In this document: in pieces, positions 8,647-32,853 of the stretch | How the letters are laid out: each line of letters opens with the position of its first letter | Position numbering within the stretch: position 1 is the first letter of the stretch | Assembly: GCA_027083035.1 (NCBI GenBank) | Contig: JALWSY010000168.1 | Span: 1-40,281, forward strand | DNA length: 40,281 nucleotides | DNA from: Sulfurimonas sp. | Lineage (GTDB): Bacteria; Campylobacterota; Campylobacteria; Campylobacterales; Sulfurimonadaceae | Direction: 5' to 3' | Notes under the pieces: generated by a model | The model's input: the letters and a program-made list of their open reading frames with translations, nothing else | Told to the model about the DNA's origin: nothing | Databases searched by the model: none | Translations under genes and position numbers: made by a program

Positions 8647-10294
<1,648 letters not shown>

Positions 10295-11127: not shown

Positions 11128-14100
11128 CTACTTCTTGCCATAAAAAAGCAAGTAAGTAGAGGGAAGTATAAGGAGGGTTAAAAGAGTAGAACTTATAATG
11201 CCTCCCGTGATAACTACAGCTAAGGGGTACTGTATCTCGCTTCCCACACCTGATGCATAAAGGAGTGGTAAAATACCAAAAAGTGTAGTAAAGGCTGTCA
11301 TAAGAACAGGGCGCAGACGCAGGAGTGTTGCATCTTTAAGAACTGTTTTTAGGTTGACATCAGGAAATTTCAGACGCAACTCATCGATGAAACTTACCAA
11401 AACAATACCATTTAAAATGGCGATGGCAAAGATAGCTAAAAAACCTACTATTGCTGAGACTGAGAGGTAGATACCACTCATAACAAGCGCGATAATACCA
11501 CCGATAAAACCAAAAGGTACATTAAGTAGTATTATCATCGCTTTACCTACAGAGTTAAAGGCTGTATAGAGCAGAAGGATAACAAGTAAAATAGTGATTG
11601 GGATAATTATCATCAGTTTTTGTGTAGCCTCTTGCATATTTTTAAAGTCTCCAGCCCAGCCTATATAGTATCCTGCTGGCATCTTTACTTTTGACTTTAT
11701 GATACTATCAGCTTCTGCAACAAATGAAGCAACATCACGCCCTTCAACCTCCATGGAGAGAACCATATAACGGCTCAAGTTTTCACGCTTGATAAATGAT
11801 GCTCCCTGTTGTATCTCTACCTTACATATCTGATCAAGCGTTACAAGTGCGCCATTTTTTGAGCGGAGTGTTACTTTTTTAATAGCCTCTGCATCTTTTT
11901 TAGCACCTTTGACTTTTGCAACGATACCAAAACGACGGATACCCTCTATTTTCTCACTTATAGGCTCTTCACCTATACCGTTACGAATGATGTCCATTAC
12001 TTCATCTACGCTGATGCCATAACGAGCGAGTGCAAGATAATCAGGGGTGATTTTTATCTGTGCCTGACCGAGTTGCGACTCTACTTCCATACGCTCTAAA
12101 CCATCAACACCACTTATCGCACTCTGAATCTCTTTAGAAATTCCATCAAGAACTTTTTGGTCATCACCGTAGATTTTTACTGCAAGTTCTGCTTTTACAC
12201 CCTCTAAAAGCTCTTCTATTCTCATCGCAATGGGTTGTGTTGGAACAAACTGCACAAAGGTAAAATGATGCTCTAAATCTTCATTCATTCTGTTTGTGAG
12301 AGCTTCAAGGTCTTCTATATTTGGCTTGAGTGTTAAAAGAATTTCCATATAGTTTCCTTGTGCAGTCTCACCCTTTTCACTTCTTCCAATCATAGCAAGT
12401 ACGGAAGAGACACTTTTTGAGTAGTTTTTGAGTATATAGCTCTCTATCTCTTTTGATGTTTGTAGTGATTGGCTTAGAGCCGTTCCGGGGATAGCTATTA
12501 CTCTATACATAATTGACTCTTCATTAAGTTCAGGCATAAACTCACGCCCTTGTTGCGAGAGAAGATATGCTAAACCTATAAATAGAATAGAAACAGCAAT
12601 CAAAACAGATTTGGCATGTCCAAGAGCAAACATAAGTAGCGGTGTATAGGCTTTTTTGATAGAGCGCATTACTACATTTTCACTTGAGCCTGTAGGTTTT
12701 AAGAGTAAAAGAATTAAAACAGGGACAAGAACTAAAGCTACCAGAAGTGAGCCAAGCATTACAAAAACAATGTTGAGTGCCATTGGTGCGTAAAGTTTTC
12801 CAGCAAGTCCATCAAGTGAGAGGAGGGGAATAAATACTGCTGCAATGATTAAAACGGCAAAGGTAACAGGTGTTGCTACCTCTTTTGCTGCTTCATAGAC
12901 AATGTTAAATTTCTTTGTAGGGGTTAGCTCGCCCTCTTCCTCATGCAGTTTTCTAAAACTATTTTCTACTATAACGATAGTCCCATCAACTATCATACCA
13001 ACAGCGATGGCAAGACCACTGAGACTCATCAGGTTTGCAGAGAGGTTATAGTAGTCCATAAGCAAAAATGCAATGAGCAAAGAGAGTGGAAGGGATAAGA
13101 TAACAATAAAAGCACTTCTCAGCTCAAAAAGAAAGAGAAACAAAACAACAGCCACAAGGACAACACCACTTATGAGTGCTGAGGTCATAGTATTTACAGC
13201 CTTATGTGTTATCTCTGTTCTATCATAGATGGTCTCTACGCTTACACCCTCAGGAAGGGCAGTATTCACCGTCTCTATCTTTTTTTGTATGCGCTCTACA
13301 ACTTTTGCCGCATTTGTAGCAGTTCTTTGCAGAACCATACCCATCACCGCCTCTTTGCCATCTATGCTCACAGCGCCAAAACGAGGTGCTGAACCAGGCT
13401 CTACCGTAGCAACATCTCTAATCGTGATAGATTGCCCCTTCATACTTTTGACAACTGTATTTCGTATATCATCAAGGGTTTGATAGAGTCCGGCACCACG
13501 GATAAGGTACTGTTCACGGTTAAACTCTAGGTACTGTCCACCTGCCGCTTGGTTGGAGCGTTGGAGTGCATCAACGATATCACTGTAGGTAATACTAAAG
13601 TCTTGAAGTTTTTTTGTATCAATGAGTACATTGTACTGCTTCTCATCTCCACCCCAGCCTATCACATCCTCAACACCTGAAACAGACTTAAAAAGAGGTG
13701 TTACAACATACTCTTGCATCTCTTTAAGCTCTCTGAGTGAATACTTTCCTGTTGTGTCTTTGATTTGGTACCAAAATACCTGTCCTAGGCCTGTAGTATT
13801 TGGTCCAAGAACAGGAGTACCCCAACCAGCAGGAATATTTATAGCACTCAAACGCTCACTCACAAGTTGGCGTAAAAAGTAGATATCCATAGAGTCCTCA
13901 AAAAAGACACTTACATAAGAGAGTCCAAAGATAGAGTTTGACATGATAAGTTTTACACCAGCCATTCCCGAAAGTGCTGACTCAACAGGGTAGGTGATAA
14001 GTTTTTCTATATCCTCAGCAGAGTTACCCGGACTCTCTGTATAGACAACTACCTGTTTGGGTGTGATATCTGGAAAGGCATCAACGGGTATCTCTGTGTA

Positions 14101-14190
14101 AGCTTTATACCCAAAAGCTGAGATAGCGATAAATGCAACAAGGACTAAGATTTTATACTTGAGCGAAAGCTCTATTATTTTTTCTAACAT
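11128..14190 (-). CDS. HME-family RND efflux pump, CusA/CzcA-like
   Basis: 1020 aa; IPVDAFPDITPKQVVVYTESPGNSAEDIEKLITYPVE, AVGMIVDGTIVIVENSFRKL, PIAMRIEELLEGVKAELAVKIYG. Confidence 0.93.
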   Translation of the reverse strand: MLEKIIELSLKYKILVLVAFIAISAFGYKAYTEIPVDAFPDITPKQVVVYTESPGNSAEDIEKLITYPVESALSGMAGVKLIMSNSIFGLSYVSVFFEDSMDIYFLRQLVSERLSAINIPAGWGTPVLGPNTTGLGQVFWYQIKDTTGKYSLRELKEMQEYVVTPLFKSVSGVEDVIGWGGDEKQYNVLIDTKKLQDFSITYSDIVDALQRSNQAAGGQYLEFNREQYLIRGAGLYQTLDDIRNTVVKSMKGQSITIRDVATVEPGSAPRFGAVSIDGKEAVMGMVLQRTATNAAKVVERIQKKIETVNTALPEGVSVETIYDRTEITHKAVNTMTSALISGVVLVAVVLFLFLFELRSAFIVILSLPLSLLIAFLLMDYYNLSANLMSLSGLAIAVGMIVDGTIVIVENSFRKLHEEEGELTPTKKFNIVYEAAKEVATPVTFAVLIIAAVFIPLLSLDGLAGKLYAPMALNIVFVMLGSLLVALVLVPVLILLLLKPTGSSENVVMRSIKKAYTPLLMFALGHAKSVLIAVSILFIGLAYLLSQQGREFMPELNEESIMYRVIAIPGTALSQSLQTSKEIESYILKNYSKSVSSVLAMIGRSEKGETAQGNYMEILLTLKPNIEDLEALTNRMNEDLEHHFTFVQFVPTQPIAMRIEELLEGVKAELAVKIYGDDQKVLDGISKEIQSAISGVDGLERMEVESQLGQAQIKITPDYLALARYGISVDEVMDIIRNGIGEEPISEKIEGIRRFGIVAKVKGAKKDAEAIKKVTLRSKNGALVTLDQICKVEIQQGASFIKRENLSRYMVLSMEVEGRDVASFVAEADSIIKSKVKMPAGYYIGWAGDFKNMQEATQKLMIIIPITILLVILLLYTAFNSVGKAMIILLNVPFGFIGGIIALVMSGIYLSVSAIVGFLAIFAIAILNGIVLVSFIDELRLKFPDVNLKTVLKDATLLRLRPVLMTAFTTLFGILPLLYASGVGSEIQYPLAVVITGGIISSTLLTLLILPSTYLLFYGKK

Positions 14191-14199
14191 ACTTAACTC

Positions 14200-15291
14200 C
14201 TAGTCCCCATCGCCAAGAGAGCCTTTGAGTAGTGCTGATTTTACATAGTAAGATTTTGCACTCACATACTCCTCCCCTAACTTTAAACCCTCAACTCCAA
14301 CAAAATCCTCATCTTGTGTAATGATTTTTACAACTTCTAAAGTGTAGGGAATACTCTCTTCTTCTCCTTCTTGCTTGTTCTTACTTTCATTTTCTTTTTG
14401 CTCCTCTTCATTTGGAACAAAAACAACCCACTCATTATTAAAAAAGCTGAGGGCTGATTTTTTCACAGCAGGGTACTCTTTTGCATCACCAAAGTAAACT
14501 GTAGATTTCAGATAAGTATTTAAAAAGAGATGCTCAACCTTTTCATCTACACTTGAGAGTACAACGACTCTTTGTGTTACTTCATCTACCTTTGGAAGTA
14601 TCTGCGTAATATGTGTGATGATATCTTTATCTGCATAATTGACAACTATCTTGTCTCCAAGTTTTACCTTTGTAGCATACTCAAGTGGTAAAAACGACTT
14701 AATATAATAGGCTTGATTTTTTACTATGCTTATAACGGGTTCACTGACACTTACAGAAGAGTGCAGGGGTTTGAGTAGTGCTGAGACTGTACCAGCACTA
14801 TGGGCATAGAGTACGAAGTTTGCAGTAGCTTGTGTGAGTTTGTCTGCTTTGATGCCAAGGGTGTTGAGTTGAGACTCTAGTGCTGTAAGTTGGGCATTTA
14901 TCTTACTAAGTTTTATCTCTTGGTTGTTGAGCTCTTGCATCGATGTCATCCCTTTTTTGTACAGGGAAGCCGTTGCATCATAGTTTTTACTTGCCGCTGC
15001 TAACTGCTTTTTAAGAGAGAGGTAATCAGCCGACATTTTTGAGACAACGATAGACTCTATGAGCGCAACTTTTTGTCCCTCTTTTACTCTTTGTGCTGGT
15101 TTTACATAGTAGGCTTCAAGATGCCCACTTACGAGTGAAGTGATAGATTGTTGCGCGTTTGAGAGCTGAATGACTTGGGCATTGAGTGCGACTGATTTGT
15201 TAAAGGTATGCATCTGCACCTTTGCAAGAGGTATCTCTGATGCAAAAAGTGTCGCTGTAAGGCTTAGTGCTGTTAAAAGTAACTTATTCAT
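14200..15291 (-). CDS. RND efflux periplasmic adaptor (CusB/CzcB-like)
   Basis: 363 aa; signal peptide, membrane-fusion protein fold motifs (GHLEAYYVKPAQRVKEGQKVALIES, coiled coil, YAHSAGTVSALL); operonic with pump. Confidence 0.85.
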   Translation of the reverse strand: MNKLLLTALSLTATLFASEIPLAKVQMHTFNKSVALNAQVIQLSNAQQSITSLVSGHLEAYYVKPAQRVKEGQKVALIESIVVSKMSADYLSLKKQLAAASKNYDATASLYKKGMTSMQELNNQEIKLSKINAQLTALESQLNTLGIKADKLTQATANFVLYAHSAGTVSALLKPLHSSVSVSEPVISIVKNQAYYIKSFLPLEYATKVKLGDKIVVNYADKDIITHITQILPKVDEVTQRVVVLSSVDEKVEHLFLNTYLKSTVYFGDAKEYPAVKKSALSFFNNEWVVFVPNEEEQKENESKNKQEGEEESIPYTLEVVKIITQDEDFVGVEGLKLGEEYVSAKSYYVKSALLKGSLGDGD

Positions 15292-16450
15292 TATATGATC
15301 CTGTTAGGTAGTTATGTTGTATGATTTGTAACTCTTTTTGGAGTCTGATATTTAAGAGATTCTCTTTTGTCTCTATGAGTTGATTTTTAATAGTTTGTAG
15401 TTCGATGAGGTTAATGTTGGCTATTTTATACCCCTCTTCGTACATACTTAAAAGCTCTTTTTGTGAAGTAAGCAGTTCTTGTGAAGTCTGCTCTACCTCT
15501 GTGAGTGTATCTATAGCTTGTCTGAGTTCACGCAGTTTAAAGTGCATCTGCTGTGTTAAGTTCTCTGTGAGAAGTTGGGCTTTTTGGGCTTCAAACTTTG
15601 CTATCTGTTTCTCTTGGCTTTTTGTATTAAAAAGAACAAGGGGAATGTCGATACTCACACGGGCAATGCTCTGCTCAGGCTCTTTTTCAAACTCACCATT
15701 GAGTGAAATCCACTCGAGTTTGTTAGCATTGAGCTTCGATGAAGCAAGTGCTGCTTCTTTTTGTGCCTTTGAGAGTTCTATTTGCGCATTAGTGCGGTTT
15801 TCATTCTCTTTTGCAAGGGAGAAGTTATAGTCTGTATCTAACTCTACTGTTTCATTTAAAGCACGAAAACCCATAAGCTGATAGTAAGCTGTAGTAGTTG
15901 CTACTTTTTTTTGTGCAAGAGTGTTTTGTACTCTCTTTACATCAAGTGTCGCTTGGATATATTTGACCTTTGCAATCGTTCCATTTTCAAAACGCGCCTG
16001 AGAAATAGTAGCTATATTTTGAGCGATAAGAAGCTCCTCTCTGGCTAACTCCTGTGCATTTTTAGCGTATTTATAAAGTGCATAGAGTGATGCAATCTTT
16101 TGTATGAAGTTTGCGCGAGAGAGTTTGACACTTGCACGCGCTTCACTCTTTTGTGCCTCTGCTAGGGTCTCTCGTGCAGAGCCAACACCCCAGAGTCTTA
16201 GTGGTTGCGAAATGCCGCCACGATAGCCAAGCTCGCTCTTTCCCGCGTCAGGATTAAAGCTTGAGAGTTCTACAGAGAGGGTAGGGTTCTCATAACGCGT
16301 AGTGAGTTCTGCCTTCTGCTGTGCTTGTTTGAGTGTAAGGGCATTTGTTTGGACTCTTGGGCTTTTAGCAAGAGAGTCTGCTAAAAAACTCACAAAATCC
16401 TGTGCTTGAAGAGTTGCCAGTAAAAAAGGGAGTATAAGTAACTTTTTCAT
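15284..16450 (-). CDS. TolC-family outer membrane efflux protein (CusC/CzcC-like)
   Basis: 388 aa; signal peptide, repeated TolC-type helices (NPTLSVELSSFNPDAGKSELGYRGGISQPLRLWG); 8-nt overlap with adaptor gene. Confidence 0.85.
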   Translation of the reverse strand: MKKLLILPFLLATLQAQDFVSFLADSLAKSPRVQTNALTLKQAQQKAELTTRYENPTLSVELSSFNPDAGKSELGYRGGISQPLRLWGVGSARETLAEAQKSEARASVKLSRANFIQKIASLYALYKYAKNAQELAREELLIAQNIATISQARFENGTIAKVKYIQATLDVKRVQNTLAQKKVATTTAYYQLMGFRALNETVELDTDYNFSLAKENENRTNAQIELSKAQKEAALASSKLNANKLEWISLNGEFEKEPEQSIARVSIDIPLVLFNTKSQEKQIAKFEAQKAQLLTENLTQQMHFKLRELRQAIDTLTEVEQTSQELLTSQKELLSMYEEGYKIANINLIELQTIKNQLIETKENLLNIRLQKELQIIQHNYLTGSYNE

Positions 16451-17374: not shown

Positions 17375-18787
17375 ATGAAAATTTTTCCATTTTTTGCATC
17401 TATCGCTATTTTAGTGACGGCACTCTTCTCCTCGGAGTTAAGATTTACTCCGGAAGAAGAGGCGTATCTTCAGAAGAAAAAAGTTATAAAAATGTGTATA
17501 GACCCACATTGGATGCCTTTTGAGAGTTTTGATGCTGATGGAAGATATATAGGTATGACTTCGGACTACTTTAAGGGCTTTGAGAAGGAGCTAGGAATTC
17601 CTATTAAAGTTGTTAAAACAAAGAGTTGGACAGAGTCAATAGAGGCAGCAAAGAGTAGAAAATGTGATATCTATTCGCTTGCAATGGAAACACCTGAGAG
17701 AAAAGAGTATATGAATTTTACGACTCCTTATCTTAATATCCCTCTGGTTCTTGCAACCCGTATGAATATAGCTTTTATGGATGATATGCGTTATCTCAAA
17801 AGAGAGAAGATAGGTATAGTTAAAGGGTATGCATTTAATGAACTTATTCGTAAAAAATATCCAAATATAGATGTAGTAGATGTTAAAAATGTGAATGATG
17901 GATTACAAAAAGTAGCAAATGGGGAACTTTTTGGATTTATTGGTACTATTGCGAGTATCGGGTATGCATTACAAAGAGATTTTGTAGGGGAGCTAAAGAT
18001 TGCTGGAAAATTTCCTGAGCGATGGGAACTTGGTATAGGAGTACGTAATGATGCACCTCTTTTATATACTATTTTTGAAAAGCTGGTGCGAGAGATACCT
18101 CCTCTTGAAAAACAGAAGATTTTAAATAAATATATCTCAGTACGCTATGAAAAGGGACATGATTACCAACTACTTATAAAGGTTCTTGTTGTTGTTTTTA
18201 TCGTGGCACTTTTTGGTCTTTATCACTATAGAAAGCTCTCCAAAATAAACGCGGAATTACATGTTTTAAAAGATGCCTTGCAAGAGCAAGCAAATCATGA
18301 CCCTATGACAAATCTTTACAATAGAAGATATTTTTATACTATTGCGAATGATATCCTTAATTTGGCACACAGAGAGCAAAAATCAGTTAGTATCATTATG
18401 CTAGATATAGACTATTTTAAAAAAATAAATGATATGTATGGACATGCTGTTGGTGATATAGTAATAAAAAGGCTTGCATCAATAATGCTAAAAAATACAC
18501 GAAAGAGTGATGTTGTAGCGAGAATTGGTGGTGAGGAGTTTGCTATATTGTTGCCAAATACAAACACAGAGGGTGCAAAAAAGATAGCTTCAAAGATTAG
18601 AGAGCTTGTGAATGATGAAAAAATAGAGGTGGATGGTGTCATCTCTTTTAACTTTACAGTAAGCCTTGGAGTAGCAACAGCCACTCAAGAGGATGAACAG
18701 ATTGATTCTGTTTTAAATAGAGCAGATAAAGCTTTGTATAAAGCAAAAGAGGCTGGTCGAAACAAAGTTTCGGTTTTTGAGTCGTAA
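17375..18787 (+). CDS. diguanylate cyclase with periplasmic SBP_bac_3-type sensor domain
   Basis: 470 aa; signal peptide, KKKVIKMCIDPHWMPFESFDADGRYIGMTSDYF (family 3 SBP), TM at about aa 265, NHDPMTNLYNRRYF, RKSD I-site 5 aa before GGEEF. Confidence 0.92.
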   Translation: MKIFPFFASIAILVTALFSSELRFTPEEEAYLQKKKVIKMCIDPHWMPFESFDADGRYIGMTSDYFKGFEKELGIPIKVVKTKSWTESIEAAKSRKCDIYSLAMETPERKEYMNFTTPYLNIPLVLATRMNIAFMDDMRYLKREKIGIVKGYAFNELIRKKYPNIDVVDVKNVNDGLQKVANGELFGFIGTIASIGYALQRDFVGELKIAGKFPERWELGIGVRNDAPLLYTIFEKLVREIPPLEKQKILNKYISVRYEKGHDYQLLIKVLVVVFIVALFGLYHYRKLSKINAELHVLKDALQEQANHDPMTNLYNRRYFYTIANDILNLAHREQKSVSIIMLDIDYFKKINDMYGHAVGDIVIKRLASIMLKNTRKSDVVARIGGEEFAILLPNTNTEGAKKIASKIRELVNDEKIEVDGVISFNFTVSLGVATATQEDEQIDSVLNRADKALYKAKEAGRNKVSVFES

Positions 18788-18948: not shown

Positions 18949-19560
18949 ATGACTTTTAGTAACTCTGCGGAGTTGTTGTCTTTTCATTGGGTAGCTTACT
19001 CCATTTATGCAGCTATGATTATATCTGTTGTTGCATGGTTTGGGTACAACCTTACAAGAAAAGAGGCAAAATCAGTTTTTAGAATACCATTTTACTGGTA
19101 TATGGCGTTTTTAGTAGCAGGGGGTGTTGGACACCATATCTTTACATACAATACTATTCCATGGGTGTCTCAGGATATAGATAGACACAATATCACTCCT
19201 GATGCAAAGTATGAGTTTGAGATAGAGGATCACAAGTGGATAAATCTTCCTAAAAAGATAACTATTCAGTGTGGAGAGACAGTTGAGTTTGATGTACATA
19301 GTCGCGACTTGGTATATGGCTTCGGTCTTTTTAGAAAAGATGGTTCTATGGTCATGCAGATGCAGGTAAATCCGGGAACAGATATCAATGGTATTCTTGA
19401 TTCAAATGATATTCTTTGGACTTTTCACCATAATGGTCTTTTTGATTTAACCTCTACTGAGTATTCTGGACCTGATGAGTATAGTGAAGATGGTGAGGAT
19501 CTAATGTTAGTGAAGGATTTTGTTGAAGTTGTAGGTTGTGAGAATGGAGGTGCAAAATGA
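18949..19560 (+). CDS. haem-copper oxidoreductase subunit II-like protein without CuA ligands
   Basis: 203 aa; N-terminal TMs and cupredoxin-like domain (FEIEDHKW, VHSRDLVYGFGLF, MQMQVNPG, STEYSGPDEY in place of CxExCGxxHxxM); ATGA overlap with subunit I. Confidence 0.8.
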   Translation: MTFSNSAELLSFHWVAYSIYAAMIISVVAWFGYNLTRKEAKSVFRIPFYWYMAFLVAGGVGHHIFTYNTIPWVSQDIDRHNITPDAKYEFEIEDHKWINLPKKITIQCGETVEFDVHSRDLVYGFGLFRKDGSMVMQMQVNPGTDINGILDSNDILWTFHHNGLFDLTSTEYSGPDEYSEDGEDLMLVKDFVEVVGCENGGAK

Positions 19561-21245
19561 GTTTTACGAAAAATCTAATAGAGGGTACTAACTTTGATCA
19601 CACAAATTTAAATGCTCTGCAAAAGGTAACTCTGCGTGCAGTTGTTATGGCATTTTTGTTTTATGGTTTGGTTGCGATTGAGGGAATGATAATGCGTATG
19701 GTTGAAGTTGGACACTCTCCACTTAATCCTGTGCCTGATCAATTTTTTCATCCAGAACACTTCTTCTCAATCATGACAGTACACCCGATAGTAGGTATTT
19801 TTGGTTCTACTTATCAGTTGGTTTTTGCTGCTTTTATGTTTTTGGTACCATACCTTACAAAGAAGCCACTCTATAGCATTAAACTTGCAAACTGTGTTTG
19901 GTTGCTGATTACGATAGGGACAGCTTTAGCGTGGATAGCTGCTTTTGTATGGAACTATGCACCGCTTTATACGCTCTACTGGCCACTTCCAGCTGATACT
20001 CATCAGTTTAAGGTAGTTGGTGGTATAGTATTTGTTATCGGTGTAGCACTTATTATGGTGGGAACTTTAGGGTTTATCTATAATATTTACGCGACTATTT
20101 TTGCCCGTGTTGGTGTGCATAAAAATAAAACAACAAAAGAGTTACTTATCTCTGGTTTTGGTGTAGATGGTATGCTTAACCTCATGAATAAGCTTCGTGG
20201 AAAACAGCCTTACACGAAAGAGCCGGCTCTTGCTCTGCCTGTTGTTGCTATCTTCCGTGGAACGGTAGATACATTTTTAGACGCTATTGTGATTCTAGCC
20301 GCAGGTATTTTAATCTTAGTTTATCTGGTATTTGATGCAAGTGGTAACGCTTTGGATGTTACAGCGGTTGATGCACTATTGTATAAAAACTTCTTTTGGT
20401 GGGGACTTGACCTTGTTGCTGATGGTCTTGTACTTATCTATGTAGCGGGTTCTTGGTATCTTTTAGCGACACTTATTACAGGACAAAAACTTTTCATGGA
20501 AAATGTTGCGCGTGCAGCGTTAATGCTTGAGCTTCTTGTTTCATGGATGGTTTGGTCGCATCACCTACTTGGTGATCAAGGACAGCCTGAGATGATGAAA
20601 CTTATCTCTGGTGAGATGGTGACAGCTTTTGAGTTACTTACACAAGGTTTAGCACTTTTTATTACTTTAGTGACACTTTGGAAAGCGCGTCCTCTTAAAA
20701 TGACTATGGAGTTAAAATATCTTCTTGGTGGTTTAGTTGGTTTTGGTCTGGCTGTTCCTGCTGCGATTATTCAAGCAGATATGGGTATGAACCGTGTTTT
20801 ACATAACACGCAATGGATTATTGGAGCGCACGTGCATATCGCACTTATTGTTGGGCTTTACATGACACTCTATAGCGCTCTGTATGTTCTGTGGCCACTT
20901 GTTACAAACAACACAAAGCTTTACTCAAGTAAGCTCTCAAATGCACACTTCTGGTTACACCTCATAGGTGGTATTGGTATGGGTGCATTTATGGGAATGG
21001 CTGGTCTTGATGGAATGCTTCGTCGTCACCTTTATGTTGATGGACAGTTTAATCCAGACATGGTTTTTGCAGCGATTTTTGGAAGTATGCTTCTTTTAGC
21101 ATGGATAATCTTCCTTTACAATATCGTGATGAGTGTTGGTGTGAAAGGTCTCATAGGTATCTTCTTACCAGCAAAAGATAAAACAGCTTCTTATGGGATA
21201 GAAGAGGAGTTAGAGCCAGCAGATGATCCTGCTTTTGCTAACTAG
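19557..21245 (+). CDS. haem-copper oxidoreductase subunit I, divergent / nitric oxide reductase-like
   Basis: 562 aa, about 12 TMs; H76 (TVHPIVG), H335-H336 (VWSHHLLGD), H425xH427 (IIGAHVHIALIVG) conserved; helix VI reads FFWWGLDLVADGL, with no His. Confidence 0.85.
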   Translation: MSFTKNLIEGTNFDHTNLNALQKVTLRAVVMAFLFYGLVAIEGMIMRMVEVGHSPLNPVPDQFFHPEHFFSIMTVHPIVGIFGSTYQLVFAAFMFLVPYLTKKPLYSIKLANCVWLLITIGTALAWIAAFVWNYAPLYTLYWPLPADTHQFKVVGGIVFVIGVALIMVGTLGFIYNIYATIFARVGVHKNKTTKELLISGFGVDGMLNLMNKLRGKQPYTKEPALALPVVAIFRGTVDTFLDAIVILAAGILILVYLVFDASGNALDVTAVDALLYKNFFWWGLDLVADGLVLIYVAGSWYLLATLITGQKLFMENVARAALMLELLVSWMVWSHHLLGDQGQPEMMKLISGEMVTAFELLTQGLALFITLVTLWKARPLKMTMELKYLLGGLVGFGLAVPAAIIQADMGMNRVLHNTQWIIGAHVHIALIVGLYMTLYSALYVLWPLVTNNTKLYSSKLSNAHFWLHLIGGIGMGAFMGMAGLDGMLRRHLYVDGQFNPDMVFAAIFGSMLLLAWIIFLYNIVMSVGVKGLIGIFLPAKDKTASYGIEEELEPADDPAFAN

Positions 21246-21293: not shown

Positions 21294-21899
21294 TTGGTAA
21301 ATTTACAGCGTGTAGCCCAAGAGATAAAGAGTGTCGGACTTTACGATTTGGTACTGCAGGATGTACAGCGCTATGCAGGCAAACAGAGAGTAAGTGAGGA
21401 GGAGATTCTTGCACTTTTAGAGAAACATCCGCAACTATTACAGGATTATATGCAGATAAATGTAGAGTACAACCTCTCAAACATTCACTTAGAAGATATA
21501 AAAACAGAAGATTTAAAAGATGATTGCAAGGCAAAGGCAGAGCAGATAAATAAAAACTTTGCGCTTTTAAAAGATTTGGAGAAATATACTCTTGATTTTG
21601 AACAGAGTGCCACTCTTGTTATCATCTTTTCAATCGAGTTTTTTGTACTCTTTTCGGTGCAGTATTTTATTGTTTTGCTTAATCTCAAAGATTGGCAATG
21701 GTGGATATATACGCTCTTTGCATCATCTGTTGCCATCGCCTACTGGTATGGTAAAAAAGAGAGTAAAATATATGCAAAAAACAAAAAAATATATGATAGA
21801 GTCTATGAAGAGACACTCTCTTTGTTAGATACACTTGAGCAGGAGGGCTGCATCAAAAAAGAGGATCTACTTGTCTGGGAGTGTGAAGAGCATGTCTAA
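21294..21899 (+). CDS. hypothetical protein with two central TM segments, TTG start
   Basis: 201 aa; AGAGGA SD upstream of TTG at 21294; TM region LVIIFSIEFFVLFSVQYFIVLL and WWIYTLFASSVAIAYWY. Confidence 0.7.
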   Translation: MVNLQRVAQEIKSVGLYDLVLQDVQRYAGKQRVSEEEILALLEKHPQLLQDYMQINVEYNLSNIHLEDIKTEDLKDDCKAKAEQINKNFALLKDLEKYTLDFEQSATLVIIFSIEFFVLFSVQYFIVLLNLKDWQWWIYTLFASSVAIAYWYGKKESKIYAKNKKIYDRVYEETLSLLDTLEQEGCIKKEDLLVWECEEHV

Positions 21900-22380
21900 A
21901 AGCATAGAGTTAGAGTTAGTGTGGGGTAAAGAAGAAGCACTCAAGGGGAGTAAACTCTACTATGATTACGATATGCGCCACTCTGCAAAGCGCTACATCG
22001 GCTGGGCATTTGTAGGATTGGTACAGTTTGGAATAGTTGGTGCGCTCAAACATGACTCTTTTGGATTACTTTATATCTCCACTTTTTTAGTGCTTTACTG
22101 GTACTATGGACGGTGGTATTTGCGTAAAATGATGATAGAACGGTTTTATAAAAAGAGCAATTCTAAAGATACAACACTTAAACTAAGTATCTCAAAAGAG
22201 GGGTTACAGATAAAAGAGGAACGAATCTCATGGGATGCAGTTGTGAAAGTGATAGAGACAGAAGAGGGATTTTTACTCAATACTACGGAAAATATACTCT
22301 TTTTAGAGAAGAGTTTTTTTCAAAAACCTGAAGACATTAGTTATTTTAAATCTTTACTTAAAGAGAAGAAAAAATTATGA
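21892..22380 (+). CDS. hypothetical membrane protein, YcxB-like C-terminal region
   Basis: ATG at 21892 (MSKSIELELVWGKEEALKGSK) overlaps the upstream stop and is more plausible than 21835; TMs then LSISKEGLQIKEERISWDAVVKVIETEEGFLL. Confidence 0.65.
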   Translation: MSKSIELELVWGKEEALKGSKLYYDYDMRHSAKRYIGWAFVGLVQFGIVGALKHDSFGLLYISTFLVLYWYYGRWYLRKMMIERFYKKSNSKDTTLKLSISKEGLQIKEERISWDAVVKVIETEEGFLLNTTENILFLEKSFFQKPEDISYFKSLLKEKKKL

Positions 22381-22552: not shown

Positions 22553-24127
22553 GTGATGCAGACACCATTAGAGAGTTTTATAGACCATAAAGCAGAGACT
22601 GGGATGCAGTGTGGATCCTACTCTATCGACATACCAAAACTCAAAGAGGGTGAGCAGTATAGATTTCACTTTGATGCAGTTGCCTGTGTGGGGTGTCGCT
22701 GTTGTGAAGTGGCGTGTAATGAGCAAAATAATAATCCAGCAGATATAAAATGGCGTCGAGTTGGTGAGATGGAGGGTGGAGAATTTCCAGCCTTTACCCA
22801 GATGTTAAACTCTATGAGCTGTAACCATTGTGTGGATCCAGAGTGTTTGCGTGGGTGTCCTACTACTTCATACATTAAGATAGAAGAGACGGGAATCGTT
22901 GTGCATGATGATGATACCTGTATTGGGTGTCAGTATTGTACTTGGAACTGCCCTTATGGTGTACCTGTTTTTCATGAAGAGCGTAACATCGTAACAAAGT
23001 GTCATATGTGTCATGAGAGACTCGATGTCGGTCAATCTCCAGCCTGTGTACAAGCCTGCCCAGCAGGAGCCATTGAGATAGAAGCTGTTAATGTTGCAGA
23101 GTGGTTAGAGGAGCAGATAGATAAAGAGGCAAATATGCCATTTCTTCCAGACGCACGCATAACAAACTCAACTACACGCTATACACTTCCAGAGAATTTA
23201 CCTGAAAATATGAAAGAGATGGATGAGCATATTCTCAAGCCTGCACATAAAGAGTTACCGCTTGTTTTTATGACTGTTTTAACACAAATATCTATAGGTG
23301 GGTTTTTAGCACTCTTTTTAGGAGACTTGATGAGTCTCTTTGGTTTTGAGGCAACAAACTGGATAATGGCACTCTTTGTGATGCTGCCAGCTGCCTTTGG
23401 TTTGCCCCTTTCAGCTCTGCATCTTGGTCGTCCATTTTTAGCAATGACAGCTATGAAAAATATCAAAACCTCTTGGCTCTCTCGTGAAGCTTTAGCCCTT
23501 GGACTCTTTACAGCTCTTATGAGTGGAGTGATAGCGGCATACTTCTTTGAACTCAATCAGGCACTTCGTTTAGCCTTGGAAGGGGTAACTTTGGCTATAG
23601 GCATTTATGGTATCTATTCACAAGCGATGATTTACCGCATCAAAGCACGACCATCATGGAACAGACCTACAACAAACTTGAAGTTTTTTGGTGTGGCGTA
23701 TGTAGGGATTTTCTTACTTGCATTTTTAAGTTCATTGCTTAGTTTAAGTGATGTTGTTGTCCCACTTATAGCGCTAGGAATGTTGGGAGCATTGGCACAA
23801 CTCTTCTTTACCTATGAAGATACAAGGAGTTTAGATACTATAAAAGAGAATGTGTATCAACTCCAACGAACAAAAAGATTGCTCAATGAAAACTTTGCAA
23901 ATCTGCATAAAACGCGTTTGATAAGCTTGGTAATAGCAGGATTATTACTTCCTCTTTTAGCTTTGGTTTTTGCAGGAAGTGGTCTATTTGGATATGCATC
24001 ATTAGTGATGTTTTTTGTTTTAGTTATTAGTTTTATAAGTGAGATAAGTGATAGATTTTTATTTTATACAACAGTAGTACCACTTGGTATGGCAGGTGGT
24101 TTCTTTGTTGGAAAGCAGAGACACTAA
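22553..24127 (+). CDS. DmsB-DmsC fusion: four-cluster ferredoxin domain plus membrane anchor of a molybdoenzyme electron-transfer module
   Basis: 524 aa; CVGCRCCEVAC, CNHCVDPECLRGCP, CIGCQYCTWNCPYG, CHMCHERLDVGQSPACVQACP followed by a multi-TM DmsC-like domain (LHLGRPFLAMTAMKNIKTSWLSREALALGLF). Confidence 0.9.
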   Translation: MMQTPLESFIDHKAETGMQCGSYSIDIPKLKEGEQYRFHFDAVACVGCRCCEVACNEQNNNPADIKWRRVGEMEGGEFPAFTQMLNSMSCNHCVDPECLRGCPTTSYIKIEETGIVVHDDDTCIGCQYCTWNCPYGVPVFHEERNIVTKCHMCHERLDVGQSPACVQACPAGAIEIEAVNVAEWLEEQIDKEANMPFLPDARITNSTTRYTLPENLPENMKEMDEHILKPAHKELPLVFMTVLTQISIGGFLALFLGDLMSLFGFEATNWIMALFVMLPAAFGLPLSALHLGRPFLAMTAMKNIKTSWLSREALALGLFTALMSGVIAAYFFELNQALRLALEGVTLAIGIYGIYSQAMIYRIKARPSWNRPTTNLKFFGVAYVGIFLLAFLSSLLSLSDVVVPLIALGMLGALAQLFFTYEDTRSLDTIKENVYQLQRTKRLLNENFANLHKTRLISLVIAGLLLPLLALVFAGSGLFGYASLVMFFVLVISFISEISDRFLFYTTVVPLGMAGGFFVGKQRH

Positions 24128-24182: not shown

Positions 24183-25583
24183 TTGATGAGTAAGTTTTAT
24201 AGTCTCTCTATTGATGATGATTTTGTATCTCTGCTCTATGTAGATAGTAATTCTAAGGGGTTTTCTATTTTACAAGAGGAGGTGCTTGAGCTAAGTGAAC
24301 TTGAGACCTTTATAGATGCAAAACAAGATGTTTATATCTCCTGTGACCAAGAGTATATCATAGATGACTTGGTTGCAGTTCCCTCTGTTATAAAAAATAA
24401 ATCAACAGTTAGAAATTATATTTTACATCAACTAAAAAAGGCAGACCCCCAAAAACAGATACTTTTTAACTATAGGGAGTTACCAAAGCAAAAGGATGAA
24501 GAGAATGTTACCTATCATGTTGATGGTGTTGATGAGGTAGAATTTTCAAAATCTTTAGAGATGGTGAAAGATTGGGAAAAAATTAAGTCAGCTACTCTCT
24601 CTAAATTTTCACTTTTAGCACTCTCAAATCAATGTATAAAAGAGAAAGCATACATCTCTGTATATACAAGTGGGAAAAAGATTCTTATTTTAGCGATAGC
24701 AGATAAGGAGATTCTCTTCTCCCGATCAAATGTTATCTCCTCTCCTACAGCAGAGTCACTACAGCTTGATATGACAGCAGAGATTAATCAAACGATTTCC
24801 TACATTCAACAGCAGTATAGAGATACTCAATTCAGTACAATTGTTTTAAGCGGGCAGATGGCTATTGATGATAGAATAGCAGAGCAACTTCTGATGCTAA
24901 ACACACTACCAATATGTATCTTGTATCCAAACTATTTAGTCAAAAATATTGAAGCAGAGGTGGGACATTCTCATATTCTTACTATTGGAAACTTATTTGT
25001 TCCTAAAGAACATCAGTTTTTTCCAACAGCACTATTGGGATTAAAACAGTTTACATTTACAACTAATCTGCTTTTGGCTCTCTCAACTATCATCTTACTC
25101 GTAGTTTCTTATTTTACATTTGATGAATATCTACGTTACTCAGATTTACTAGAACAGTATCATACCATTAAAGATAGACTGCTCAATACTGTGCGTCACA
25201 CCAAAACACTCTCTCAAGAGGATTTAGAAAAGAGTCTCAACCATCTTAATATAGCTAAAAAGCATCTTAAAAATCATCCGTCAGATACGGTGATAGAACT
25301 TAAGCCTTTAATTAGTTTACAGAAACCTTCTGCTTGGGAGTGGAGTCATGAAAATGATGTTCTTAACTTAAGTGCGAAGTTTGAAAAGCCGTTTAAAACT
25401 TTGGGTGGATTACATGAGTTTGAGTTAGAGTTTGATAGTCGATTGGATGATATTAACGGATCAGATAACTTTATGAAACTGCCAAATACAAATTATAAAA
25501 AGCTTTATTTTACTACAGAAGTCAAAATGGTACCTAAAACGCAGAACCGTGATGTATCAGCTCCACAAGCAAGGGTAGAGTAA
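24183..25583 (+). CDS. MshI/PilM-like pilus biogenesis protein
   Basis: 466 aa, cytoplasmic actin-like N-terminal region then single TM (LLLALSTIILLVVSYFTF); first gene of pilus cluster. Confidence 0.6.
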   Translation: MMSKFYSLSIDDDFVSLLYVDSNSKGFSILQEEVLELSELETFIDAKQDVYISCDQEYIIDDLVAVPSVIKNKSTVRNYILHQLKKADPQKQILFNYRELPKQKDEENVTYHVDGVDEVEFSKSLEMVKDWEKIKSATLSKFSLLALSNQCIKEKAYISVYTSGKKILILAIADKEILFSRSNVISSPTAESLQLDMTAEINQTISYIQQQYRDTQFSTIVLSGQMAIDDRIAEQLLMLNTLPICILYPNYLVKNIEAEVGHSHILTIGNLFVPKEHQFFPTALLGLKQFTFTTNLLLALSTIILLVVSYFTFDEYLRYSDLLEQYHTIKDRLLNTVRHTKTLSQEDLEKSLNHLNIAKKHLKNHPSDTVIELKPLISLQKPSAWEWSHENDVLNLSAKFEKPFKTLGGLHEFELEFDSRLDDINGSDNFMKLPNTNYKKLYFTTEVKMVPKTQNRDVSAPQARVE

Positions 25584-26101
25584 TGGTGAAAATAGTTATA
25601 ATTTTTCTAAATCTTGCACTCTCTATCCTCTTCTTGAGTCTCATCTCTTGGTTTGAAGCCAAAGAGAGTGAGATTAAAAATGTAAATCGTAAACATAAAA
25701 GTGATATTAGGAAATTAAAAAAAATTCCTGCTATTAACAAGGCTATTGAAGAGAAAGTACGACCTGCTTTAAAGATTCAACCAAAGAGCGCCGAAGAGGC
25801 TGATTTAAAACTTATAAAGTTCTTTGATAAGTATGCAGAGGGGTACAACTTTGAGATAAATCAATACACATATAGTGATAACATAGCACACTATTTGGAT
25901 ATTACATACACTTTGGATCGTAATGAGAAAAAACTTTTAAATGAGTTTATGCAGATGCAGTTTCAGAGTGGTTTTATACAGTTTAAAAAGTTTCAACTAA
26001 AAAAGATGAAGCTAGTAGGAGAGATACAGTTGGTACAACCCTTTGCAAGTGCTAATCCAGAACCTATTCAAGAAGAGGTGACTGATGTTCCACCTGAATA
26101 A
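25583..26101 (+). CDS. MshJ/PilO-like pilus assembly protein
   Basis: 172 aa; N-terminal TM then periplasmic coiled-coil-like domain; position after MshI-like gene. Confidence 0.5.
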   Translation: MVKIVIIFLNLALSILFLSLISWFEAKESEIKNVNRKHKSDIRKLKKIPAINKAIEEKVRPALKIQPKSAEEADLKLIKFFDKYAEGYNFEINQYTYSDNIAHYLDITYTLDRNEKKLLNEFMQMQFQSGFIQFKKFQLKKMKLVGEIQLVQPFASANPEPIQEEVTDVPPE

Positions 26102-26591
26102 CACACAACTTTTTAAGCTAATCATGCCTTTCATACTCGCTTCAATCTTGTATGTTTATAGTGATGATATTATGCAAGATGCAGACTCTGTTTTTCCAAC
26201 GATTCAGCAGTATTCAAACAAAGAACTTGATGAAAAAGCTAAGGTCTATTTGAAAATTCAAAGAGATCGGGATGTTTATGCCACTATTGTATCACAGATG
26301 CAAAAAAGAGAGAAAAACAGAAACTGGATTGTAGAGAATCTTCTGTATGAGAAAAAGAGTGAAAAAAGCATTCCAATTGTAAAAAAAGAGGTTGTTAGAA
26401 AAAAGAAAATAGCCAAAGAGCAACATTGGAAACTTCAAATATTATATCCTAATAAAAAAGTGGCTATAATAAACTCCAAAATAGTACATGAAGGCTTCAT
26501 GGTTGATGGAGCTAAGGTTATAAAAATAATGCAAAATAAAGTACTTCTTAAAACTAAAAAAGGTAAAAAATGGCTCTCTTTATTCCACTAG
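26085..26591 (+). CDS. MshK/PilP-like pilus assembly protein
   Basis: 168 aa; N-terminal TM and C-terminal LYPNKKVAIINSKIVHEGFMVDGAKVIKIMQNKVLLKTKKGKKWLSL (PilP/GspC-like homology region); before secretin. Confidence 0.55.
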   Translation: MFHLNNTQLFKLIMPFILASILYVYSDDIMQDADSVFPTIQQYSNKELDEKAKVYLKIQRDRDVYATIVSQMQKREKNRNWIVENLLYEKKSEKSIPIVKKEVVRKKKIAKEQHWKLQILYPNKKVAIINSKIVHEGFMVDGAKVIKIMQNKVLLKTKKGKKWLSLFH

Positions 26592-28123
26592 TAACACTCT
26601 TCCTACTTGTAATCAATGGATGTTCTACGCCTACAGCATCACCTCAAGCACAAGAAGAAAAAAAAGTAATAAAGGCATCAAATATAAAATCTGCTTCAGA
26701 GGAACTCAAAGTATTTCATGATAAACAAGAAGCACAAAGAAATGCTGTCCCTGCAATGATTTTGCCACCAGTTTATGAAGATATATCTGTTTTTGATAAT
26801 CAAAAGATAACCTTTGCCGCAAAAAATGCAGATTTGCACAATATACTCTACTCCATATCTAAAATAGCAGGGTTAAATCTTATTATAGACAAAGATGTAA
26901 ATCATACACCGATAACACTCTCTGTTGAAGATGCAAGTTTGCAAGAGACACTTGATGTAATAATGGATATATCTGGGGCATATTATCAAGTAGAGGGGAA
27001 TATTTTACATATTAAAGAGTTTATGCGAAAACGATTTAACATTCCCTATGTTCATGCAGCAACCTCTTTTTCAACAGATTTGGGAGGAGATACGCTTGGT
27101 TCAGCAATGGCGGGGGGTTCCTCCGGAAGTAGTGGTTCATCTGGTGGCTCATCTGGCGGCTCTTCAGGTGGTGCAGGAATAAAGGGAAATTTTAAGCTCA
27201 ACTATAATAACCCAGAAAAATCTAACGATTTTTATGAACATTTAGAAAATAATATCAAAGAGCTTATTAGTGATGATGGAAAATATACACTTAATAGATT
27301 TAGTGGAGTGTTGAGTGTATATGATAAAAAGAAAAACATTCAAGCTATAGAGAACCTTATCAATGATATAAAGAGGCAATCCTCAAAAGCTGTGCTTATT
27401 GAAGCAAAACTTTTGGAAGTAACGCTTAATGATGGACATCAGTTAGGTGTAAGTTGGGAAGCAGTAGCAAATAGTGTGGCAAATAATGGTGACCAGCTTT
27501 TACTGCAACAGACACTCTCTTTGAGTGGTGGTGTTGCCGGAACTGTAAAATACTCTACGGATAATTTTAGTGCAGTTGTCAAAGCACTTGACTCTTCAGG
27601 AAATGTAGAGACACTCTCAAATCCAAGGATTAAGGTATTGAGTGGGCAGTCAGCTATCATCTCTTCTGGTAAGTTGGTTCCTTTTTGGGAAAAAGAGGTG
27701 CAGACAGACCAAGGAACAGGTGGTTCAGCGAGTAATACACAAGTGACTTATAACCGTAGAGATATTTTAGATGGTATCACAATGGGAGTCACTCCAACCA
27801 TTATGGATGATGGAAGAATTATGCTTAATGTTATTCCTATAACATCAAATATTGTAACTGTAGTAGATCATTATGATGAAACAGGTGCTATAGTCGCTAC
27901 AGCACCTATTTTAAATGTAAAAGAGGCGGGAACTATTATAAATGCAAAAGATAATGATATGGTGTTAATCGGGGGACTTATCAGTAGTGCAACGACACAA
28001 GAGGATGAAAAGATTCCACTATTAGGTGATATACCATTTATTGCACCACTCTTTACAAAAACAAATGATAAAATAGAGAAAAAAGAGCTTGTTATCTTGA
28101 TTCGATTAAAAGTGATACAATGA
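26570..28123 (+). CDS. mshL: secretin, MshL/PilQ-like
   Basis: 517 aa; lipobox VINGC, STN-like domain (NLHNILYSISKIAGLNLIIDKDV-type), VLIEAKLLEVTLNDGHQLGVSWEAV, secretin C-terminus NDMVLIGGLISSATTQEDEKIPLLGDIPFIAPLF. Confidence 0.9.
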   Translation: MALFIPLVTLFLLVINGCSTPTASPQAQEEKKVIKASNIKSASEELKVFHDKQEAQRNAVPAMILPPVYEDISVFDNQKITFAAKNADLHNILYSISKIAGLNLIIDKDVNHTPITLSVEDASLQETLDVIMDISGAYYQVEGNILHIKEFMRKRFNIPYVHAATSFSTDLGGDTLGSAMAGGSSGSSGSSGGSSGGSSGGAGIKGNFKLNYNNPEKSNDFYEHLENNIKELISDDGKYTLNRFSGVLSVYDKKKNIQAIENLINDIKRQSSKAVLIEAKLLEVTLNDGHQLGVSWEAVANSVANNGDQLLLQQTLSLSGGVAGTVKYSTDNFSAVVKALDSSGNVETLSNPRIKVLSGQSAIISSGKLVPFWEKEVQTDQGTGGSASNTQVTYNRRDILDGITMGVTPTIMDDGRIMLNVIPITSNIVTVVDHYDETGAIVATAPILNVKEAGTIINAKDNDMVLIGGLISSATTQEDEKIPLLGDIPFIAPLFTKTNDKIEKKELVILIRLKVIQ

Positions 28124-29142
28124 AAAAATTAGCATATATTTTACTGTTAACACTTACCCTGAATGCTGCTGATACTTTAGTCTTTGGAGAAGAGAGTACC
28201 AATGTTGTAGAAAATAGTGTGCAAGAGAAAAAGGTACAACAAAAAGTCTATAGTGTCCGTTTTATGTCTGTTCCTATGGATACCCCTAAAAGCAAAATTT
28301 TACACTCAATTCCTAAAGATTTACGAGCAGATACAAAGATTGTTCCCTCTGGAAAATATTTAACTGCAATGTATAAAGAGCGTCTTGATCATGATGCAAT
28401 AGTAAAAGATTTAAAATATATCAGACAAAAAGGTTATAAAGATGCCTACATCCGTTCTCATAAAAAATTTGTAAAAGCAGAAAAAGAGTATAAAAGAGCA
28501 GAGAAAAAAAGTGTAAAAACTCTTAGAAAAGAGGTTGCTAAAAAAAGAAAAAACTCTTTTCAAAGAGATATAATTAGACCAAAAATTTCTAAATTTACAA
28601 ATTCAAGGATAGTATATAAAGCAAATGATGCATATAAAAAAGGGGATTATATGCAGGCGATTATTTTTTATGAGATGCTTGTCGCATCAGGCAATGCAAG
28701 TCGAAAAATAAAAAATAATCTCTGTTATCTCTATGGGAGAGTAGGCGCTTTTGCTCAGGCTGAAGAGATTATCAACTCTTCAAAACATCCTGCAAAACTC
28801 ATCTATGCTTATGCGTATGGGGCAGCCACAACAGGGCAAGAGAATTATTACAGTAATCTCTCTAAGTATATCTCATACGACAGAAGTGGAAAACTTATGT
28901 TACTGAGTGGTTACTACTTCGAGATGAAGGAGCAACGAGAGAGAGCTTTGACTTTTTACAAGATGGCATACGAACAAAACCCTTCAGATATCTATAATCT
29001 CTATGCGTACGCGCGTGCTGAGGATATACTAAATCATAAAAAATCAGCCTTATCGTTATATAAAAAAATCACAAAACTTGCCGATGTCTCATCTGAGATA
29101 TACAAAGTTGCAAAAAAAAGAGAGTCTCAATTAGGAGAGTAG
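28120..29142 (+). CDS. TPR-containing protein, MshN-like position
   Basis: 340 aa; signal peptide and TPR-like repeats (ALTFYKMAYEQNPSDIYNLYAYARAEDIL); between secretin and prepilin. Confidence 0.55.
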   Translation: MKKLAYILLLTLTLNAADTLVFGEESTNVVENSVQEKKVQQKVYSVRFMSVPMDTPKSKILHSIPKDLRADTKIVPSGKYLTAMYKERLDHDAIVKDLKYIRQKGYKDAYIRSHKKFVKAEKEYKRAEKKSVKTLRKEVAKKRKNSFQRDIIRPKISKFTNSRIVYKANDAYKKGDYMQAIIFYEMLVASGNASRKIKNNLCYLYGRVGAFAQAEEIINSSKHPAKLIYAYAYGAATTGQENYYSNLSKYISYDRSGKLMLLSGYYFEMKEQRERALTFYKMAYEQNPSDIYNLYAYARAEDILNHKKSALSLYKKITKLADVSSEIYKVAKKRESQLGE

Positions 29143-29143
29143 C

Positions 29144-29974
29144 ATGAAAAAAAGAGCCTTTACCCTGATAGAATTATCTATAGTGTTAGTGATTATTGGA
29201 CTTATTATTGGCGGGTCATTTAAAGTTTTAAAAACGATGCGTGAAAATGCAAAAATTACAAATGCAAAAAATGATGTACAAGCTGCCAAAAATGCGATTA
29301 TAGGGTATGCAATGAGTTTTAATTATCTACCGACAAAAACATTTTTTGAATCTGATTTATCTCCAATAAAAGCGAATCAACATCAACTTCTATATGTACA
29401 TGATACGGCTTTAGAGACAAAAAATATTTGTGCTTTTGTAAGTACCCTGTTAAATGTGCAAGTAGATCATAAAGATGGAACGACACAAACAATTCCAAAT
29501 ATAGCTTTCGCAGTTGCTTCGGAATCTGCTAATAAAAATTTACAAACAAAATTAACTGCTAGTGGGGGTGGGGCGTTTAAAATCGAGGTAAGAAAGCCAT
29601 ATGAAAAGATTGATGATGAACCAAATCCTATAAATCGTGCCGAAGAGTATGATGATATTGTAGCATGGGTAACTCTTCCAGAACTTCAAAAATTAATTGA
29701 TTGTTCTGCACAGCCATTTAGATTTTTAAATAATGATTTGCCGAAGGCTAGGTTATTTCAACCATACAGTGCAAGTTTATATGTTGAAAATAATATCAGT
29801 AGTGTTACCATAGTGTGTAATCCTCCAAGTGATAAAAATATTTCATCAACTGCAGGCACATTTACTGGTAATCCAAATGCAACGGGTACCAGTCTAAGAA
29901 CGTGTACTGCTACGGAAGCGTCTCCCGGAACAAGAAGTATAATCAAAAAGTTTCTTATAATAATAGACCCATAA
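29144..29974 (+). CDS. type IV prepilin-like protein
   Basis: 276 aa; KKRA-FTLIELSIVLVIIGLIIGG prepilin cleavage/methylation motif. Confidence 0.85.
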   Translation: MKKRAFTLIELSIVLVIIGLIIGGSFKVLKTMRENAKITNAKNDVQAAKNAIIGYAMSFNYLPTKTFFESDLSPIKANQHQLLYVHDTALETKNICAFVSTLLNVQVDHKDGTTQTIPNIAFAVASESANKNLQTKLTASGGGAFKIEVRKPYEKIDDEPNPINRAEEYDDIVAWVTLPELQKLIDCSAQPFRFLNNDLPKARLFQPYSASLYVENNISSVTIVCNPPSDKNISSTAGTFTGNPNATGTSLRTCTATEASPGTRSIIKKFLIIIDP

Positions 29975-29984
29975 AGGAATAAAA

Positions 29985-31640
29985 ATGGCACAAAACAAAC
30001 CAATAGGAAAACTTTTAGAAGAGGCTGGTTTTATTAACCAAGAGCAGATAGAGGTCGCTTTAGATGTTCAAAAGGCGAGTCCTATGTTCTTTGGAGAGGT
30101 ACTTCAAGAGTTGGACTTCGTAACTCCTGCTGAGATTGCACAGGCAGTAGCACAACAAAATAATTTGGAGTATATCAATCTCTCCTCAAGAGTACCTTCT
30201 GTTGAGGCACTTAAACTTGTGCCGCATGAGATTGCACAGGCAAGATCTATTTTACCACTTGAAGTAGATGAAGAGACACTTACAGTGGCAACTGAAGATG
30301 TAAATGATATTATGACACTTGATTATCTTAGAAAGATATCAGGTAAAAAGATAAAGTTTTTAGTTTCAGATAAAACATCTATTGCTCGATATGGGGAGAT
30401 TTTTTATTACCAACTAGAAAATCCGATAGAAGCAGAGATTGCACAGGCAGTTAAGGATACTCTTGAACATAAAGAGATAGATATTCCACATCTTGTTGAT
30501 TTGCTCTTAAATAATGCCATAAAAGATAGGGTGACAGATATTCACATCACTCCAGAAAATACAGCTTCTCATGTTTTTTATCGTATTGATGGTGTCCTGC
30601 AGCACTACTATTCACTTCCTATTGAGTTGCATGCGCAGATTGTTGCTCGTATTAAGATTACTAGTAATCTTGATATCTCAGAGCAAAGAAAACCTCAAGA
30701 TGGTGCATTTTCATACACTTTTTTAAATGAAGAGTTTGATTTGAGGGTATCTACTCTGCCTACAAATCATGGTGAAAATATTGTTATGAGACTTTTAGGA
30801 AAGGGTTCTTCCCTTTTTAATCTTGAAAACCTTGGACTGACAAAAGAGAATGCACAAAAAGTACAAAAGTATTTTACAAAACCTTACGGTATCATCCTTA
30901 TAGTTGGACCTACAGGAAGTGGTAAAACAACAACACTCTACTCAGCATTAAGAAAGGTAAACTCTCTAAAGAAAAATGTTATGACAATTGAAGATCCAAT
31001 AGAGTATAAATTTACATTTATTAAACAGACACAGCTCAATATAAAAGCAGGATACACTTTTGATGCAGCTATTCGTGCTTTTATGCGTCAAGATCCAGAT
31101 GTAATTCTTGTCGGTGAGATTCGTGATCCTGAGACTGCGGAGCTTGCAGTTCGTGCCTCCATTACGGGTCACTTGGTTCTCTCAACTTTGCATACTAACA
31201 ATGCTATTGGAACTATTCCTAGACTTGATGATTTGGAAATTCCGCCCTATTTAGTTGCTTCAGGTCTGCTATCTATCATAGCTCAAAGACTTGTGAGAAA
31301 ACTCTGCCCGCATTGTAAAGTAAAAGTGGAGAAGAGTGTTGAAGAACTCTTAGAAGCAGGAGTGCCACAAGAGATTATTGATATCCAGCCAGAGTATGAA
31401 ATCTATGAAGCAAAAGGGTGTGAGCAGTGTAGAAATACCGGTTATAATGGTCGTGAAGCTATTATTGAGATATTTGAGCTTGATACGGAACTAGAGGGAC
31501 TTATAACGCAAAGGGCAAGCACTTTAGAGATTTTAGAACTTGCAAAAAAGAAGGGTATGAAAACCATGAAAGAGGATGGTTTTATCAAAGTGTTGAATGG
31601 AAAAACTACCCTTGATGAGATTGATAGAGTTATCGACTAA
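29985..31640 (+). CDS. mshE: GspE/PilB/MshE-type secretion ATPase
   Basis: 551 aa; MshEN-type N-terminus (GKLLEEAGFINQEQIEVALDVQ), GPTGSGKTTTLYSAL Walker A, RAFMRQDPDVILVGEIRDPETAE, CPHCKVKVE...CEQCRNTGYNGREAI. Confidence 0.95.
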   Translation: MAQNKPIGKLLEEAGFINQEQIEVALDVQKASPMFFGEVLQELDFVTPAEIAQAVAQQNNLEYINLSSRVPSVEALKLVPHEIAQARSILPLEVDEETLTVATEDVNDIMTLDYLRKISGKKIKFLVSDKTSIARYGEIFYYQLENPIEAEIAQAVKDTLEHKEIDIPHLVDLLLNNAIKDRVTDIHITPENTASHVFYRIDGVLQHYYSLPIELHAQIVARIKITSNLDISEQRKPQDGAFSYTFLNEEFDLRVSTLPTNHGENIVMRLLGKGSSLFNLENLGLTKENAQKVQKYFTKPYGIILIVGPTGSGKTTTLYSALRKVNSLKKNVMTIEDPIEYKFTFIKQTQLNIKAGYTFDAAIRAFMRQDPDVILVGEIRDPETAELAVRASITGHLVLSTLHTNNAIGTIPRLDDLEIPPYLVASGLLSIIAQRLVRKLCPHCKVKVEKSVEELLEAGVPQEIIDIQPEYEIYEAKGCEQCRNTGYNGREAIIEIFELDTELEGLITQRASTLEILELAKKKGMKTMKEDGFIKVLNGKTTLDEIDRVID

Positions 31641-32848: not shown

Positions 32849-32853
32849 AAATA

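Follow-up and report, generated by a model that had tools for sequence, protein, structure and literature searches.

The locus analyzed here is predicted to encode a gNOR of the norGH type, a two-subunit NO reductase that is probably quinol-oxidising and non-pumping, and we put the probability of this reading at roughly 0.8. It lies in a window of 40,281 nucleotides, the whole stretch of DNA that was analyzed, which is contig C168 of a 2.29-Mb genome with 192 contigs and 94.6% completeness. The nearest relatives of this genome are Sulfurimonas and Sulfurovum genomes, and the host is a Sulfurimonas-like vent bacterium. gNOR is common in sulfide-oxidising denitrifiers of vents and redoxclines, and the family has been proposed from genomes, with no purified enzyme. 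Because only cNOR, qNOR, bNOR, and eNOR have been biochemically characterised (PMC11388526), NO reduction by gNOR is a prediction from sequence.

Active site and family assignment of subunit I

The gene for subunit I (NorG-like; 19557..21245, forward strand, as are all the residues below) encodes 562 amino acids and belongs to the heme-copper oxidase (HCO) superfamily. The family HMMs were in keeping with the divergent HCO described in the initial annotation: COX1 was the single Pfam family found (171.5 bits, cut-off 34.8), and none of the curated NCBIfam oxidase families reached its cut-off (CtaD/CoxA, 81.8 bits against 670.75; ccoN, 44.6 against 583). Since the best NCBIfam match was CtaD/CoxA, even if far below the cut-off, gNOR genes are at risk of being automatically named 'cytochrome c oxidase', which would hide a N2O-producing capacity. 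HCO folds ranked at the top when the AlphaFold model was searched with Foldseek; the mean pLDDT was 70.9, and the site fell below 50, with low confidence at residues 284-288 and 335-339.

Translation of 19557-21242 confirmed the ligands named in the initial annotation. These were H76 in helix II (19782..19784), a low-spin haem ligand whose position matches the haem His in every HCO type; the metal-ligand pair H335-H336 in helix VII (20559..20564); and H425-V-H427 in helix X (20829..20837), which would provide the second low-spin haem ligand and the proximal ligand of the high-spin haem. Helix VI reads WWGLDLVADG and, as had been claimed, has no His; the translation contained none between residues 189 and 334. 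Two acidic residues were found in this segment, D285 (20409..20411) and D289 (20421..20423), and a third, E359 (20631..20633), which the initial annotation did not name, in helix VIII. The eight residues H76, D285, D289, H335, H336, E359, H425, and H427 were invariant in 98/98 homologues with 60-100% identity, a set that spans several families and isolate genomes, e.g., Sulfurimonas indica (L016). So many intact homologues, isolates among them, indicate that the Asp site is neither a sequencing error nor a chance event, and a sequencing error or pseudogene was ruled out on these grounds. Since one of the three His ligands is missing and activity is known for no member, it could be argued that no metal is bound or that the site itself has gone, leaving a haem-based NO sensor, an NO-binding scavenger, or a decaying paralogue. 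This is very unlikely, because all the haem ligands, both His still present, and the acids D285, D289, and E359 are invariant over 98 sequences from several families, unlike in a decaying site, and the operon with subunit II has been retained.

Next, helix VI was compared with that of other HCOs, anchoring on the aromatic pair that precedes the ligand; the segments lined up with zero gaps. They were WWGLDLVAD for gNOR, WWTGHPIVY for ba3 (B-type), WFFGHPEVY for A-type, WWVVHLWVE for cNOR, and WWYGHNAVA for cbb3. As initially proposed, this register puts D285 at the position of the CuB/FeB ligand His and D289 at that of the oxidase cross-linked Tyr or cNOR Glu211, across every HCO family compared. 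The same register was obtained with hhalign against B-type oxidases and with phmmer against the ba3 G232V sequence. On the other hand, phmmer against wild-type ba3 and hhalign against A-type oxidases shifted the helix by one residue, with Gly283 on the conserved Gly and Leu284 on the His; D285 would then be a second-shell residue at the Pro position, and two His together with D289 or E359 would bind the metal. We regard this arrangement as unlikely, since the ligand would have to be preceded by a deletion and followed by an insertion, whereas the ungapped version, also found with the B-type oxidases, brings both invariant acids to the His and Tyr/Glu positions of every family. The third acid, E359, sits three residues before the conserved Pro position of helix VIII, like Glu280 of Pseudomonas aeruginosa NorB, whose numbering was confirmed, and V, A, L or I occupies this position in the O2 reductases compared. 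E353 and E325 were likewise invariant, but only E359 aligned with Glu280. cNOR depends critically on both Glu211 and Glu280 for its activity and for the uptake of protons (PMC3431322).

The closest scaffold is that of an A/B-type oxidase, and for this reason a divergent oxygen reductase, still active with O2 despite a changed CuB site, was considered. However, helix VI lacks the His and the Tyr under both registers, each NOR-specific position is taken by a carboxylate, and a cbb3 oxidase is already present in the host. Moreover, equivalents of the A-type proton-channel residues D132, E286 (the helix VI Glu), and K362 were absent from subunit I in the alignment, D132 and K362 being replaced by Pro and Ala. 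Such an enzyme is therefore highly improbable, in agreement with the doubt first expressed about O2 reduction, and the site without His and Tyr ruled out assignment to the A, B, or C O2 reductases.

A maximum-likelihood tree of 32 HCO subunits, whose long branches were flagged by the program, separated gNOR, A-type, B-type, and cbb3 enzymes from cNOR/qNOR with support of 100/100, and gNOR, A-type, and B-type from cbb3 with 99/98. The gNOR, A, and B groups were each monophyletic, and the branching order among the three was without resolution (cf. PMC11388526). Profile-profile comparison gave E-values of 8e-25 with A-type and 1.5e-21 with B-type enzymes; cNOR was matched in part only. Searching the PDB with the gNOR profile returned weak cbb3 matches only, and the placement is therefore based on the profile-profile comparison and the tree. 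Plasmid records contained no full-length match to gNOR, only distant oxidases, which were used as references.

The first guess of a gNOR was borne out by the positions of the two Asp, by E359, by the place in the tree on the A/B side, and by the CuA-less subunit II, the occurrence in Sulfurimonas and Sulfurovum, and the co-occurrence with nirS described below. The literature is in agreement: gNOR is listed with D as the active-site residue, 0 proton channels, and Sulfurimonas, Sulfurovum, and Persephonella as hosts (PMC8756737, Table A4), and a cupredoxin second subunit is reported for sNOR, gNOR, and eNOR in the same work. D289, at the oxidase-Tyr position, the replacement of the metal-ligand His by D285 (subject to the one-residue register caveat), the cupredoxin-type subunit II in the operon, and the lack of A-type channel residues all correspond to this family. 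Canonical cNOR was ruled out by D285 instead of His and by a cupredoxin partner instead of NorC; the true NorBC of this genome sits on contig C134. In addition, D289 ruled out eNOR, sNOR, and bNOR, where the defining residue at the Tyr position is Gln in eNOR and Asn in sNOR and bNOR (PMC8756737). The His2-Asp site had also been called unusual. The Asp substitution holds throughout the 98 homologues, but it is not new, because a metal-ligand His-to-Asp change in 'certain NOR types' already appears in PMC3475470, which cites Hemp & Gennis 2008 and Sievert et al. 2008, and the active-site Asp of gNOR is published too. Reports of Asp at the metal site go back to 2008, and the protein in the window is an ordinary member of its family.

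Subunit II, electron donor and downstream genes

The subunit II gene (NorH-like; 18949..19560, forward strand) lies directly upstream of subunit I, here and in relatives, and its stop overlaps the subunit I start by 4 bases. The product has two N-terminal transmembrane helices and a cupredoxin domain without CuA ligands. Pfam gave zero matches for this ORF alone; the family profile matched ba3 CuA domains, including engineered ones (6pty, E=2e-8; 1ehk_B, 1.8e-5), with Tyr for the first-loop His of CuA and Ser for both Cys, within an STEYSG motif. In the AlphaFold model (pLDDT 85.9), two long N-terminal helices precede a cupredoxin barrel, and the best fold match was ba3 subunit II. The NosZ model, with a CuA domain at its end, weakly matched the subunit II gene in several genomes. 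Since subunit II lacks CuA, the direct electron donor is likely quinol rather than cytochrome c, and this is consistent with the published account of gNOR (norGH) as 'quinone-oxidizing non-electrogenic' (PMC8906906). Directly upstream of the gNOR genes, a periplasmic solute-binding SBP_bac_3 domain fused to GGDEF is encoded at 17375-18787 on the forward strand; further upstream, the window contains an ammonium transporter and P-II pair (8647-10294, forward) and an RND efflux pump with adaptor and outer-membrane factor (11128-16450, reverse).

From these features, a working cycle can be proposed. Menaquinol would reduce the low-spin haem, bound by H76 and one His of the H425/H427 pair, and electrons would then pass to the high-spin haem on the other His of the pair, facing the metal. 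This metal would be held by H335, H336, and D285 in a 2-His-1-carboxylate site, which should favour iron over copper, and D289 and E359 may help proton delivery. The reaction would be 2 NO -> N2O + H2O, either beside NirS/cNOR denitrification or as NO detoxification. To our knowledge, a 2-His-1-carboxylate ligand set has not been demonstrated in any purified HCO.

The gene downstream of subunit I (21294..21899, forward strand) encodes a conserved membrane protein of ~200 amino acids that has a single hydrophobic region (residues ~102-132) and matches no Pfam family. It was present in 28/299 Campylobacterota genomes, and all 28 were gNOR carriers with the gene always adjoining gNOR. Put the other way, it was directly downstream of gNOR in 28/32 carriers and in 0 non-carriers, and the four carriers without it make up the clade whose gNOR has ~60% identity. 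This strict linkage suggests that the protein is a gNOR accessory subunit or assembly factor. No mention of the gene was found in the gNOR literature searched, with Murali et al. 2024 and Sievert et al. 2008 lying outside the search, and it is possibly new to the literature. We tentatively propose, at less than even odds, a combined model in which gNOR has three components in most Campylobacterota, with the ~200-aa protein as an undescribed subunit or metal-insertion factor, and in which its haem/non-haem iron site, 2-His-1-carboxylate, arose convergently from an O2 reductase. A YcxB-domain gene follows (21892..22380, forward strand; PF14317, 37.6 bits; start set by homology), and it also followed in many close relatives (18/42 neighbourhoods compared).

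Distribution and possible role

In a survey of 299 genomes of the phylum Campylobacterota, gNOR was found in 32, nirS in 47, nosZ in 88, and a cNOR close to the NorB of the genome studied here in 44. Among the 32 carriers, 28 had nirS (odds ratio 91, p=1e-22) and 24 had nosZ (p=2e-8), both p values ignoring genome relatedness. In G015, G203, G204, and G292, gNOR is about 2-12 kb from nirS/norB, an arrangement with a chance of about 3e-4. The genome under study also carries NorBC, NirS, and cbb3, and nosZ was not detected in its 94.6% complete assembly; with nirS and NorBC but no nosZ found, the organism may release N2O as the final product.

In many Sulfurimonas-like genomes, the genes near gNOR are those of a NarK-like transporter, a NasC-like nitrate reductase or a NirA-like nitrite reductase, rather than nir/nor. 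Many of them, including the one analyzed, have as neighbours a fused DmsB-DmsC-like Fe-S/anchor protein (22553-24127 in the window) and a NasC-like molybdopterin reductase (35900-38203), and here a NirA-like nitrite reductase (38287-40200) follows, all on the forward strand. These genes apparently form a nitrate assimilation or reduction island beside gNOR that recurs in relatives. Between the DmsBC-like and NasC-like genes stands a MSHA-type/type IV pilus cluster (24183-33543, forward; secretin, MshE-type ATPase, T2SSF, prepilins), and 33669-35810 (forward) codes for a protein of 713 aa that matched neither Pfam nor NCBIfam.

These neighbourhoods bear on the role of a genuine gNOR, which might be NO detoxification, nitrosative-stress defence, or protection during nitrate/nitrite assimilation and not respiratory denitrification. 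Canonical cNOR was also present in 27/32 carriers, so gNOR is dispensable for the pathway there; the other five (G125, G131, G146, G229, and G273) had neither cNOR nor qNOR, and all but G131 lacked nirS as well. Three of these, G146, G229, and G273 (family f10, genus g27), carry gNOR with the third gene. A stress function has been proposed for the NO reductases of Methylomirabilis, including gNOR (PMC6094997), and the assimilatory neighbours point the same way. Nevertheless, the strong co-occurrence with nirS and the direct clustering with nirS/norCB in four genomes argue for denitrification, and we consider the protective role a real possibility, but with the odds somewhat against it.

Comparison with known systems

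The closest known system is gNOR itself, as found in Sulfurimonas denitrificans, Sulfurovum, Persephonella, and Ca. Methylomirabilis, which has in common with the window's locus the active-site Asp and the His-to-Asp ligand; the cupredoxin subunit II, the lack of proton channels (judged here by the A-type residues), and the host lineage likewise match. Relatives with 80-96% identity are present in public Sulfurimonas/Sulfurovum genomes, and no feature was found that separates this member from known gNOR, the downstream ~200-aa gene having no counterpart in the descriptions searched. The cNOR (NorBC) of P. aeruginosa (3o0r) is, like gNOR, an NO reductase predicted to be non-pumping, and its acids at the Glu211 and Glu280 positions are matched by D289 and E359. 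In contrast to cNOR, gNOR has Asp for His207, a cupredoxin in place of the cytochrome c subunit, and a separate branch in the HCO tree. With counterparts to the two cNOR-site carboxylates present on another branch of the superfamily, the acids look convergent, and this apparently convergent pair on an oxidase scaffold offers a test case for the change from O2 reductase to NO reductase. The subunit I and II scaffold is common to gNOR and the ba3-type (B-family) oxygen reductase of Thermus (1ehk), but gNOR lacks the helix VI CuB His, the cross-linked Tyr, and the CuA ligands of that enzyme. Finally, gNOR resembles the bo3 quinol oxidase (CyoAB) in its CuA-less cupredoxin subunit II and its probable quinol donor, and differs from it in the active site and the proton channels.
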